In this document: positions 964-4,587 of the stretch, piece by piece | Layout: each line of letters begins with the position of its first letter | Position numbering within the stretch: the first letter of the stretch is position 1 | Made by a program: the position numbers and the translations under genes | NCBI GenBank assembly: GCA_016868105.1 | Contig: VGIA01000014.1 | Location: 1-35,896 of the forward strand | Direction: 5' to 3' | Source: Betaproteobacteria bacterium | GTDB lineage: Bacteria > Pseudomonadota > Gammaproteobacteria > Burkholderiales > SG8-39 | Length of the DNA stretch: 35,896 bases | Notes under the pieces: model-generated | What the model was told of the DNA's origin: nothing | Database searches by the model: none | The model's input: only the letters and a program-made list of their open reading frames with translations

Positions 964-1265
964 TCCATGAACCTCCTGTTGATAAACGCAATCGGGTGGC
1001 AGGCAGCCGAGTTCCTGTTTCCCCCCGGCCCAACCGCCTCAACCCCTCGTGAACTCAGTGAGAAGTTGGTGCCATTCTCCGCCCCCAGCCCCTACCGGCG
1101 CAACGCTTGGGCGCAGTTTTCCGAGGATTCACCCCCCCTCTGTTGCGTCGGAACAACATAATTAAAATGTAGTTAAATCAATGCGTTGCGTTTTCATGCT
1201 CGGATTCCGCACAAACTCCTCTGCGGATCCACCCACCCAGCCCCGCCTTGCAGCCGGCCGCATCG
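964..1265 (-). other. Porin 5' leader and intergenic region
   Basis: No convincing gene lies here. The stretch holds the porin ribosome site (972-977), a pyrimidine-rich segment, a run of seven C at about 1132-1138, and a short inverted repeat TGTTG (1141-1145) / CAACA (1154-1158) next to the likely -10 box. If the promoter assigned at 1155-1181 is right, the porin mRNA has a leader of about 180 bases, long enough for control by small RNAs or structure. That role is inference. Confidence 0.5.
1155..1181 (-). promoter_or_regulatory. Putative sigma70-type promoter of the porin gene
   Basis: On the minus strand TTGATT (complement of 1176-1181) and TATGTT (complement of 1155-1160) are separated by 15 bases, in an island (1155-1182) that is strikingly AT-rich for this genome. 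Each hexamer matches the consensus at 4 of 6 positions. The spacer is shorter than the optimum 17, so the exact assignment is uncertain, but this is the only promoter-like island upstream of the porin. Confidence 0.45.
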
Positions 1266-1301
1266 AAAAAGGGGGCGCGGCTGCGCCTCAATCGCCCCCT
1301 T
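1266..1301 (-). terminator. Rho-independent terminator after trpC
   Basis: A perfect 9-bp inverted repeat, AAGGGGGCG (1269-1277) and CGCCCCCTT (1293-1301), with a 15-base loop. On the minus strand the stem is followed by five T (complement of A1266-1270). It starts 27 bases after the trpC stop and so ends the trp transcript before it reaches the porin promoter. Confidence 0.85.
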
Positions 1302-1328
1302 GCCCTCTGGGTCGGGCTGGCTTGGCCC

Positions 1329-2117
1329 TCAGGCGAACAGCCGGGCCAGCTCGCTGCCCGGATCACCCGCCCGCATGAAGGCCTCTCCCACCAGGAACGC
1401 GTTCACCCCGCCGCTGCGCATCCGCGCCACATCCTCGCGCGTGAGGATGCCGCTCTCGGTGACCAGGACCCGGTCGGCGGGCACCGAGGCGCGCAGCTCC
1501 AGGGTCCTCTCCAGCCGGGTCTGGAAGGTGCGCAGGTCGCGGTTGTTGATGCCCACCAGGGGCGTGCTCAGCTGGAGCGCCGCCCCCAGCTCGGCTGCCT
1601 CGTGCACCTCCACCAGCACCGACATCCCCAACCCCGAGGCAATCGATTCCAGCTCGCACATCTTCGCCGTCGCCAGCGCCGCCGCGATCAGCAGGATGCA
1701 GTCGGCACCCATCGCCCGCGACTCGAACACCTGGTAGGGCTCCACCACGAAGTCCTTGCGCAGCACCGGCAGGCCGCAGGCCGCGCGCGCCGCCCGCAGG
1801 TGCGCCGCGTCGCCGCGGAAAAATTCCCGGTCGGTGAGCACCGACAGGCAGGCGGCGCCGCCCCTCTCGTAGCTGCGCGCGATCGCCGCCGGGTCGTAAT
1901 CGGCGCGGATCTCGCCCTTCGAGGGGCTCGCACGCTTGCTCTCGGCGATCACTGCCGGACGCCCGGCCGCGAGCCGGGCGCGGATGGCGCCGGCAAAATC
2001 GCGCGGAGGCGGGGCCGCCGCGGCACGGCGCTCCATCTCCGCCTGCGCCACCGCGCAGCTGGCGGCGGCGACCTCGCTGGCCTTGACCGCCAGGATCCGC
2101 TGCAGGATGTCGGACAT
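1329..2117 (-). CDS. trpC: Indole-3-glycerol-phosphate synthase
   Basis: Cytoplasmic TIM-barrel enzyme that closes the indole ring of CdRP (1-(2-carboxyphenylamino)-1-deoxyribulose 5-phosphate), the fourth step of tryptophan synthesis. At 262 residues it has the normal length of a monofunctional TrpC. Diagnostic motifs are present: [13 protein letters not shown] at about 58-70 with the catalytic Lys, LRKDF at 119-123, GINNRDL near 190 and VTESGI near 213. The ATG at 2115-2117 starts 28 bases after trpD, on the same strand, and a terminator follows the stop. TrpF activity is not encoded in this protein. The gene is intact, in contrast to the upstream trpE/trpG region. Confidence 0.97.
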
Positions 2118-2145
2118 CAGGACCGCCTGATGTAAGCGAATACTT

Positions 2146-3174
2146 CTACTTCAGGCCCTGGCTAAATGAGACGAACGCCTCCAGCTTGGCCTTCGCCGCG
2201 CCGCTGGCGATCGCCTTGCGCGCGCGCTCGACCCCGTCCTCGTAGGACCTGGCCACGCCGGCGACGTATATCGCGGCGCCGGCGTTGAGCAGCACGATGT
2301 TGAGCGCGGGACCGGACTGGTTCTCCAGCACCGCGAGGATCATCTGCTTTGACTCCTCCACGGTGTTCACCTGGATGGCGCGGCGGTCATAGAACTCCAG
2401 CCCGAGCGCGGACGGATCGAGCTCATATTCGTCGACCTCGCCCTCCTTCAGCTCGCCCACCAGCGTCGGTCCGGACACCGAGATCTCGTCCAGCCCCTCG
2501 CGGCCGTGGACCACCATGACGTGGCGGGAGCCCAGGCGCTGCAGCACCCGCACCTGGATGCCGACCAGGTCCGGGTGGAACACGCCCATGACCTGGTTCT
2601 TCGCCCCGGCCGGGTTGGTGAGCGGGCCCAGGATGTTGAACAGGGTGCGCACGCCCAATTCCTGCCTCACCGGCGCGGCGTACTTCATCGCGCTGTGGTG
2701 GGCCGGGGCGAACATGAAGCCGATGCCGGTCCTGTCGATGGCCTGGGCCACCTGCGCCGGGGTCATCGCGCTGGCGCCGCCAAGGGCCTGCAGCACCTCG
2801 GCGCTGCCAACCGAGGAGGACACCGCGCGCCCCATGTGCTTGGCCACGCGCGCGCCGGCGGCCGCGGCGACGAAGGCGCAGGCCGTGGAGACGTTGAAGG
2901 TGTGCGCGCCGTCACCGCCGGTGCCGCAGGTGTCCACCAGGCGGTGGTGGTCCTTCACCTCGACCATGGTGGCGAACTCGCGCATCACCTGCGCCGCGGC
3001 GGCGATCTCGCCGATGGTCTCCTTCTTCACCCGCAGGCCGACGATGAAGCCGCCGATCTGCGCCGGGGTGAGTTCGCCGCGCATGATCTGGCGCATCACG
3101 TGCAGCATCTCGTCGTGGAAGATCTCGCGGTGCTCCACGGTGCGCTGGATCGCCTCTGCGATGCCGATTTTCAT
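2146..3174 (-). CDS. trpD: Anthranilate phosphoribosyltransferase
   Basis: Transfers phosphoribose from PRPP to anthranilate, the second step of tryptophan synthesis. The protein has 342 residues, standard for a stand-alone TrpD. The PRPP-binding loop CGTGGDG (83-89), NVST (94-97) and the KHMGRAVSS segment (112-120) are all intact, and the rest follows the type III phosphoribosyltransferase fold without gaps. Purine-rich GGGGACGG precedes the ATG. The start lies 10 bases after the stop of the trpE'-'trpG remnant, so translation of trpD was probably coupled to trpG and may now be coupled to the 41-codon remnant. It lies upstream of trpC in the usual trpGDC order. Confidence 0.97.
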
Positions 3175-3184
3175 GTCCGTCCCC

Positions 3185-3310
3185 TTATTTGCCTTCGATG
3201 AAATTCCTCAGCATGGCCTGCCCGTGCTCGGTCCGCATCGCCTCGGGGTGGAACTGCACCCCTTGGACCGCCAGGCCGCGCGCGGCAAGTTGCCCGGAAT
3301 CAGGGTCCAT
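3185..3310 (-). pseudogene. trpE'-'trpG in-frame fusion remnant (41 codons)
   Basis: The minus-strand frame from the ATG at 3308-3310 to the TAA at 3185-3187 ends in LAVQGVQFHPEAMRTEHGQ and then a short tail ending NFIEGK. This is the C-terminus of the glutamine amidotransferase subunit TrpG, including the catalytic-triad motif HPE. A whole TrpG is about 190 residues; only about the last 30 are present. The N-terminal part MDPDSGQLAARG does not belong to TrpG. It resembles the start of betaproteobacterial TrpE (M...LAA.G before YNRIP) and has a well-spaced GGGAG ribosome site. The simplest reading is one in-frame deletion from about codon 12 of trpE to about codon 160 of trpG. The TrpG part is sure; the TrpE part is inference. 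No catalytic function is possible. Confidence 0.8.
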
Positions 3311-3358
3311 CGTGAGGAAACTCCCGCTGCTGCTGCCGATGTTGGAACGCAACTGCGT

Positions 3359-3390
3359 GCGGCCCGGGATTCACCCGCCCGCCGGGCCGC
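3359..3390 (-). promoter_or_regulatory. Strong hairpin in the trp leader (candidate attenuator element)
   Basis: Perfect 9-bp inverted repeat GCGGCCCGG (3359-3367) / CCGGGCCGC (3382-3390) with a 14-base loop, between the Trp-rich leader peptide and the trpE'-'trpG remnant. Its placement fits an attenuation element, but no T-run follows on the minus strand, so it is not a textbook intrinsic terminator. A second inverted repeat (GGCGCC 3414-3419 and 3423-3428) lies inside the Trp codons of the leader. Confidence 0.4.
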
Positions 3391-3408
3391 GCGGGGAGGC
3401 AAGGAGTT

Positions 3409-3474
3409 CTAGCGGCGCCAGGGGCGCCAGCTGCGCCAGCCGAGACAGGGGGTGTTGGTGCGCAAGTTATTCAC
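3409..3474 (-). CDS. Candidate tryptophan leader peptide (21 codons, 3 Trp)
   Basis: The minus-strand frame from GTG (3472-3474) to TAG (3409-3411) ends WRSWRPWRR, with three UGG codons spaced every third codon among the last nine. It sits immediately upstream of the trp remnant and is followed by a strong hairpin (3359-3390). A short peptide with clustered Trp codons in front of trpE is the hallmark of ribosome-mediated attenuation of trp operons. The start codon is uncertain: no good ribosome site is visible before this GTG, and a TTG at 3463-3465 is an alternative. It begins 16 bases after the rpe stop. I infer it from the Trp clustering and position, not from family homology. Confidence 0.45.
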   Translation of the reverse strand: MNNLRTNTPCLGWRSWRPWRR

Positions 3475-3490
3475 GACGGCGGCGAATATA

Positions 3491-4165
3491 TCACGCCGCC
3501 AGGCGCGCGCGCAGGTCGCCGATGGTGGCCGCGTAGTCCTTCGAGCCGAAGATCGCCGATCCCGCCACGAAGGTGTCGGCGCCGGCGGCGGCGACGCGGG
3601 CGATGTTCTCGGCCTTGATGCCGCCGTCCACCTCGAGCCAGATGTCGCGGCCGGTGGCCTGGATGCGCCTGCGCACCTCGCCGATCCTGGGCAGCACCGA
3701 CTCGATGAAGGCCTGGCCGCCGAAGCCCGGGTTGACCGACATCAGCAGCACCAGGTCCAGCTTCTGCAGCGTATGCTCCAGGACCGACAGCGGCGTGGCC
3801 GGATTGAGCGCCAGCCCCGCCTTGCAGCCGTGGTCCCGGATGAGCGCGATGGTGCGCTCCACCTGCTCGCTCGCCTCCGGGTGGAAGCTGATCAGGTTGG
3901 CGCCGGCCCTGGCGAAATCCGGCACGATGCGGTCCACCGGCCGCACCATCAGGTGCACGTCGATGGGCAGCGTGGTGTGCGGCCGGATCCCGGCGCAGAC
4001 CAGCGGCCCCACCGTCAGGTTGGGCACGTAGTGGTTGTCCATGACGTCGAAGTGCACCAGGTCGGCGCCGGCCGCCGCCACCGCGCGCACTTCCTCGCCC
4101 AGGCGCGCGAAATCCGCCGACAGGAGCGAGGGCGCGATGCGGAACGCGGGATCAGTCCTGGCCAT
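3491..4165 (-). CDS. rpe: Ribulose-5-phosphate 3-epimerase
   Basis: Interconverts ribulose 5-phosphate and xylulose 5-phosphate in the pentose phosphate and Calvin pathways. The 224-residue TIM barrel is full length. Visible signatures: SLLSADF near residue 14 (Ser, and Asp at the active site), [14 protein letters not shown] near 38-51 with metal-binding His/Asp, DVHLMV near 70, [10 protein letters not shown] near 142-151 and EVDGGI near 178. In betaproteobacteria rpe commonly precedes gph-trpE-trpG-trpD-trpC; here gph is absent and the trp leader follows at once. It diverges from apaG, with only 38 bases between the two start codons. Confidence 0.97.
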
Positions 4166-4174
4166 GGCGATGCG

Positions 4175-4180
4175 ATTCTA
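4175..4180 (-). promoter_or_regulatory. Putative -10 box for rpe
   Basis: TAGAAT on the minus strand, ending 9 bases before the rpe ATG. A start site 6-7 bases downstream would give a leader of only about 3 bases. No recognisable -35 box is visible. It lies back to back with the apaG -10 box. Confidence 0.4.
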
Positions 4181-4191
4181 GCGCGCCGCAC

Positions 4192-4197
4192 TACAAT
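4192..4197 (+). promoter_or_regulatory. Putative -10 box for apaG (leaderless arrangement)
   Basis: TACAAT followed by exactly six bases (GCGCCC) and the apaG ATG, so transcription would begin at or next to the A of the start codon. No clear -35 box or Shine-Dalgarno site is visible. This suggests a leaderless apaG mRNA; inference from position only. Confidence 0.45.
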
Positions 4198-4203
4198 GCG
4201 CCC

Positions 4204-4587
4204 ATGGTCCAGGACAAGCGCTACCAGGTCGCCGTGAGCGCGGCGGTGAAATACCTGCCCGAGCAATCCGACGAGGACGGCGGGCGCTACGTGTTCGCCT
4301 ACACCATCACCATCCGCAACGCCGGCAGCGTGGCCGCCCAGCTGATCAGCCGCCACTGGATCATCACCGACGCGGCCGGCGCGGTGCAGGAGGTGAGGGG
4401 CGCGGGCGTGGTGGGCGCGCAGCCGCTGCTGCGGCCGGGCGAATCGCACCAGTACACCAGCGGCACCGCGATCGCGACGCCGGTCGGGACCATGCGCGGC
4501 AGCTACCAGATGGTGGCCGAGGACGGCACGCGCTTCGAGGCGCCGATTGCCGAGTTCACGCTGTCGGTGCCGAGGGTGCTGCACTGA
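4204..4587 (+). CDS. apaG: ApaG-domain protein
   Basis: Small immunoglobulin-like beta-sandwich protein of 127 residues, the normal size of bacterial ApaG. The conserved core is clear: [13 protein letters not shown] near 31-43, the RHWIITDA segment near 50-57, then [14 protein letters not shown] and the [20 protein letters not shown] region near 82-105. ApaG is linked to cobalt/magnesium resistance and nucleotide binding in enterobacteria, and the fold occurs in eukaryotic F-box proteins, but its biochemical role is unsettled. It diverges from rpe and is followed by mltA after 77 bases. The start is supported by conserved N-terminal residues and by the -10 box placed just before it. Confidence 0.93.

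Follow-up and report, generated by a model that had tools for sequence, protein, structure and literature searches.

The genomic region in front of trpD is best explained by one deletion, and we consider it likely that this deletion occurred and that anthranilate synthase was lost with it. The window, by which we mean the whole 35,896-nucleotide stretch analyzed here, is the entire contig C14 of a draft genome of 2.51 Mb (190 contigs, 96.09% complete, 0.57% contaminated). Its minus-strand frame 3310..3185 runs from ATG to TAA over 41 codons and joins 12 codons of trpE to 29 codons of trpG in frame. A single deletion of about 1.9 kb would have removed trpE from codon 13 onwards together with all of trpG except the final 29 codons, and would have left a cell unable to make anthranilate from chorismate. 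Judged from gene content, such a cell probably depends on an external supply of anthranilate or a related compound. The features concerned are collected in Table 1.

Table 1. Features around the scar frame, in window coordinates
Feature	Coordinates	Strand	Evidence
rpe, marker of the ancestral order	3491..4165	-	TIGR01163, 307 bits (cut-off 212.6)
TATATT, promoter -10-like, 10 bases 5' of the trpL GTG	3485..3490	-	sequence; putative function
trpL-like leader ORF, VNNLRTNTPCLGWRSWRPWRR, three Trp codons	3409..3474	-	W-R-rich frame end, nine genus relatives
GGGAG ribosome site, formerly of trpE, 10 bases 5' of the ATG	3321..3325	-	sequence; aligned with GGAG of G007
First 12 trpE codons (MDPDSGQLAARG)	3275..3310	-	aligned with the G007 trpE start MHPDFPQLAAAG
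Last 29 trpG codons and stop; HPE motif	3185..3274	-	PF00117; TrpG tails of eight relatives
trpD, anthranilate phosphoribosyltransferase, intact	2146..3174	-	TIGR01245, 404.7 bits (cut-off 199)
trpC, indole-3-glycerol phosphate synthase, intact	1329..2117	-	NF001373, 381 bits (cut-off 317)

The fused frame and the locus of its relatives

The 41-residue peptide consists of MDPDSGQLAARG followed by 29 residues derived from TrpG. Its C-terminal part matches positions 160-187 of the GATase model PF00117 (E 8e-7, above the cut-off) and also aligns with the TrpG ends of relatives. Its N-terminal part and the ribosome site together can be aligned with the beginning of trpE (TrpE MHPDFPQLAAAGYTR) in G007, the nearest relative with undeleted sequence (82% identical in TrpD), at a local score of 36 that none of 500 shuffles reached. 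The N-terminal part alone aligns more weakly with seven other relatives, the scores being reached by 0, 0, 3, 4, 6, 41 and 45 of 500 shuffles. The 180 bases between the rpe stop and the scar ATG also align with the rpe-trpE spacer of G007 (score 118) and with that of G008 (score 180), in both cases with 0/500 shuffles as high; of the other seven relatives, six give a clear spacer alignment, reached by 0 or 1 of 500 shuffles, and L040 gives a weak one, reached by 20 of 500. The assignment of the 12 N-terminal codons to trpE is thus based on the G007 alignment, on their position and on an LAA-G motif.

Synteny and alignment therefore agree with the earlier note, which had described a 41-codon frame fusing the start of trpE to the end of trpG. 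Its TrpE-like first 12 codons, its HPE-containing trpG end (29 codons, where some 30 had been claimed), the retained ribosome site of trpE and the frame stop 10 bases before trpD (coordinates 3185 and 3174) all stand. The active site of a functional TrpG, as of glutamine amidotransferases, is a Cys-His-Glu triad; in the 41-residue frame this triad is incomplete, the HPE part being present and the cysteine part absent.

What has been lost can be read from the relatives. We searched 13 genus genomes, the window genome included, and found TrpD in 10 and Rpe in 12 of them; ten stretches from nine relatives were compared, the tenth being the other PF00425 (chorismate-binding enzyme) locus of G008. 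The order rpe-trpE-trpG-trpD lies on a single contig in seven relatives. In G007, trpE-trpG-trpD-trpC share one contig, a second, overlapping contig holds rpe and the beginning of trpE, and G011 has a PF00425 match beside rpe on the same strand. In G008, the closest relative, contigs break on both sides of the trpEG region, C255 ending 211 bases past the rpe match and C238 beginning at trpD codon 19; the G006 contig stops within rpe, of which only the start is seen, and G001 yielded neither rpe nor trpD. Compared with the ordinary genus locus, rpe-trpE-trpG-trpD-trpC, the window shares the neighbors and the leader region and differs in that trpE and trpG are cut to 12 and 29 codons. The missing stretch is about 1.9 kb long; counted on the codon positions in G007, it comes to 1924 bases. 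The earlier proposal that gph was deleted as well proved wrong, since trpE directly follows rpe, with no gph between them, in the relatives seen.

Some other genus genomes carry extra sequence within the locus. In G008 (L042:973-3091), trpD and trpC stand about 2.1 kb apart, with DUF5615 and PIN-domain frames in between, and inserts between trpE and trpG measure about 1.9 kb in G009 (L035:5826-7740) and about 1.6 kb in G010 (L040:4235-5841), the latter with a methyltransferase-like frame.

The trpG remnant has diverged. Its 22-residue tail shows 4-5 differences from each of eight relatives, the 28 pairs among these relatives differing by 0-2; the tail of G007, which lies at a TrpD distance similar to that of the window genome, differs from those of the other relatives by only 1-2. 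Two of the tail residues (R for L, Q for H) occur in none of the 57 other distinct tails, which were taken from 91 of the 108 loci scanned, and one of these 57 scores below the window tail. Tail divergence of this kind would not be expected of a mis-splice from a working trpG; it favors a genuine deletion of some age over an error of assembly.

Retention of the lower pathway and candidate sources of anthranilate

Both trpD and trpC are intact, as had been claimed, and score above their cut-offs. The remaining genes, trpF, trpB and trpA, lie together on contig C36, where we read the adjacent frames by eye as truA, accD and folC. All five proteins, TrpD, C, F, B and A, exceed their NCBIfam cut-offs, the TrpA match covering positions 1-237 of 256. 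Against G008, dN/dS was 0.14 for TrpD, 0.25 for TrpC, 0.15 for TrpF and 0.06 for TrpB (part of the protein), with Rpe at 0.24 as the yardstick; TrpA, comparable with G007 only, gave 0.40. Amino-acid changes unique to the window genome or to G008, respectively, numbered 12 and 4 in TrpD, 11 and 15 in TrpC, 5 and 0 in TrpF, and 1 and 3 in TrpB, which sums to 29 and 22 over these four proteins; Rpe had 9 and 6. These comparisons indicate that the lower genes are, on the whole, under purifying selection, which may have relaxed slightly for TrpD and TrpF on the window branch. A change of KHGNR to KHMGR in TrpD was considered as a mark of lost function and rejected, because G007, which has both trpE and trpG, shows it too.

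On the reading that we prefer, the lower pathway would be kept for anthranilate salvage, either directly from neighbors or via kynurenine and the cell's own kynureninase. Alternatively, the deletion could be recent and the organism simply a tryptophan auxotroph in which decay has yet to reach the lower trp genes, a view that accepts both the deletion and the loss of the synthase and differs only on the reason for the persistence of these genes. In its favor, TrpD and TrpF show somewhat more amino-acid changes on the window branch, and the genome measures 2.5 Mb, compared with 2.9-3.6 Mb in the six other genus genomes that are at least 90% complete. However, substitutions have had time to arise in the trpG tail at sites that hardly vary elsewhere, yet all five lower genes are still open and above cut-off, and we regard a recent loss as possible but rather unlikely.

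The salvage reading finds a candidate anthranilate source in a kynureninase gene (kynU) at C7:39978-41138, which scores 303 bits against TIGR01814 (cut-off 246.4), contains the KYNU_C domain and is flanked by a zinc-dehydrogenase-like and an xdhC-like gene. By analogy with Chlamydia caviae, kynurenine could supply anthranilate here. Tryptophan 2,3-dioxygenase is encoded on C9, and neither this gene nor kynU is linked with the trp genes on C14 and C36. A loop from tryptophan through kynurenine and anthranilate back to tryptophan brings no net gain of tryptophan without an external supply of kynurenine.

Kynureninase scores above cut-off in 3 of 65 family genomes, namely the window genome, G015 and G081; PF00425 is represented in G015 by a weak sole match (2.9e-48) and in G081 by a strong one (2.3e-94). 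G008 carries the same kynU, clipped by a contig end and 87% identical over 78 residues, and G007 and G004, both of which have TrpE, carry kynureninase homologues of 42-43% identity. G008 does not show that kynU accompanies the loss of trpE, because a fused-type anthranilate-synthase-like protein, albeit one below the cut-offs, is present there (see below). The sample does not support the notion that kynU and loss of trpE travel together.

The dioxygenase occurs in 19 of the 65 family genomes. We also considered two classes of this enzyme, one of them tied to trpE loss, and ruled this out: the split PF03301 match that suggested it is a search effect, and the split-match dioxygenase of G008 is 90% identical to the enzyme of the window genome. 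In G011, G008, G071 and G061 (L165, L166, L186 and L187) the next gene after tryptophan dioxygenase encodes a kynureninase-like paralogue with 31-32% identity; no such paralogue was found beside the dioxygenase in the window genome.

Anthranilate synthase in the rest of the genome

No PF00425 match was obtained in any of the 190 contigs of the draft, the same search being positive in 14 of 14 control genomes. The model matched in 38 of the 41 genomes of the relatives search, the two other blanks being 72% and 56% complete. Across the family, 55 of the 65 genomes (each at least 85% complete) have a PF00425 protein and ten, the window genome included, have none. The blank family genomes include G055, G056, G057 and G071; G056 and G057 are 98% complete, and G057 is assembled in about 10 contigs.

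As for the glutaminase component, the genome holds eight PF00117 matches, the scar tail and seven other proteins. Four of the seven are CarA, PyrG, GuaA and HisH, above their respective cut-offs, and the other three are amidotransferase-like and fall below every family cut-off compared. None of the seven is a second TrpG, the best listed score against the TrpG/PabA models being 51 bits (CarA) compared with a cut-off of 121. The draft thus contains neither component I nor an intact TrpG and possesses TrpD, C, F, B and A. The earlier note's view that anthranilate synthase would be lost at this locus is supported by a 96% complete draft in which neither a PF00425 protein nor TrpG is found.

PF00425 matches once, in TrpE-like form, in 8 of the 13 genus genomes. 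A CADD-type p-aminobenzoate (pABA) synthase was found in none of the 13; its control search matched in 1 of 14 genomes and rose above cut-off in none. Without TrpE the draft retains no chorismate-binding enzyme, and synthesis of the folate precursor pABA may be touched as well.

G008 deserves separate mention. A 659-residue frame there (L043:1054-3030, minus strand) finds its best models among the fused-type anthranilate synthases, at 329.6 bits compared with a cut-off of 645, and scores 298.6 against TrpE-clade3 compared with a cut-off of 739, the matches covering part of the length. We rejected the possibility that the weak PF00425 match of this genome is PabB, its best models being the fused-type synthases, albeit below cut-off. 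Because this fused-type anthranilate-synthase-like protein is present, G008 cannot be counted among the genomes without anthranilate synthase. Weak PF00425 matches also occur in G003 and G015.

A different account of the blank is that the population is mixed, with trpEG kept in some cells and the assembler having chosen the deleted form or the binning having lost the other contig. The ends of the G008 contigs on both sides of trpEG are what a branching assembly graph could leave. Against this, the window contig passes unbroken through the junction, none of the 190 contigs carries trpE, and a functional allele that was still frequent would leave the tail divergence unexplained, so that we hold a mixture to be improbable. 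It is less probable still that trpE and trpG have moved to a region missing from the draft: some 4% of the genome may indeed be absent, but trpE lies beside rpe in the assembled genus loci, and the draft reveals neither a second chorismate-binding gene nor another TrpG, which also disfavors the relocation raised before.

An assembly or bin artefact, such that the junction exists in no cell, is very unlikely even for a draft in 190 contigs. In eight relatives, no run longer than 7 bases close to the junction, or longer than 11 over a wider stretch, is common to trpE and trpG, which is too short for an assembler to join on if it used word lengths in the usual range, as we assume; moreover, the join is in frame and the tail has unusual residues. 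The collapse contemplated in the earlier note is unlikely on the same grounds. The deletion with loss of anthranilate synthase is the reading that we carry forward.

Predicted expression of the scar and comparison with known systems

The deletion would leave the putative promoter, the trpL leader and the ribosome site driving a meaningless 41-residue peptide. Translation of the scar would run to within 10 bases of trpD, presumably coupled to that gene, so that trpD and trpC would stay expressed and could still be under tryptophan control. The leader has counterparts in nine relatives, G008 included, with three Trp codons in seven, two in L036 and one in L040. In the window it is unannotated, and its peptide ends in WRSWRPWRR. 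The TATATT hexamer in front of it is matched by TATAGT shortly 5' of the leader start in L158, L037, L039, L040 and L041, and by TATATT in G008; its distance of only 10 bases from the GTG suggests a nearly leaderless transcript.

Upstream of trpE, frames with at least two Trp codons occur in 26 of 59 rows, the window included, a count that has no chance control. Pairing between the leader and the trpE ribosome site ranged from z -7.3 to +2.0 over the 59 rows, with the window at 0.0. Long complementarity of this kind (z -3.0 to -7.3) was seen in L002, L018, L020, L039, L116, L122 and L130, where it could possibly mediate translational control. An Rfam scan of 1200-4300 returned only a CRISPR-repeat match, below the gathering score.

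Partial tryptophan pathways without TrpEG have been published before, and what the window adds is the clean in-frame scar. Chlamydia caviae, C. felis and C. pecorum have the lower pathway without anthranilate synthase and with kynU in the operon, which reads trpR-trpD-trpC-trpF-trpB-trpA-kynU-prsA once the letters used in that paper are translated into the classic names, and a leader peptide has been proposed in C. felis (PMC3937554). Like these species, the window genome keeps the lower pathway, lacks anthranilate synthase and has a kynureninase as a possible source of anthranilate. Unlike them, with kynU in the trp operon and kynurenine made by the host, it carries kynU on another contig and has a tryptophan dioxygenase of its own; a fused scar is not described for Chlamydia in the portion of PMC3937554 drawn on here.

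Among gut bacteria, variant A3 (TrpABCDF without TrpEG) was reported in 38 of 2856 genomes, and anthranilate salvage was proposed for it (PMC9026213). The same trp genes are present and missing in the window genome, in which, by contrast, the deletion junction can be seen, a feature not described in the portion of PMC9026213 that we draw on. We put little weight on the further idea that a betaproteobacterium, as opposed to a host-restricted parasite (its habitat being guessed), might run a pathway cut off from chorismate and fed by the kynurenine of others, using a kynureninase that few members of its family possess.

Taken together, one sequence captures a pathway that would have lost its entry step with the rest unharmed, an in-frame deletion having spared leader, ribosome site and the approach to trpD. 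The scar would thereby mark a precise nutritional dependence of this organism, on anthranilate or on kynurenine.
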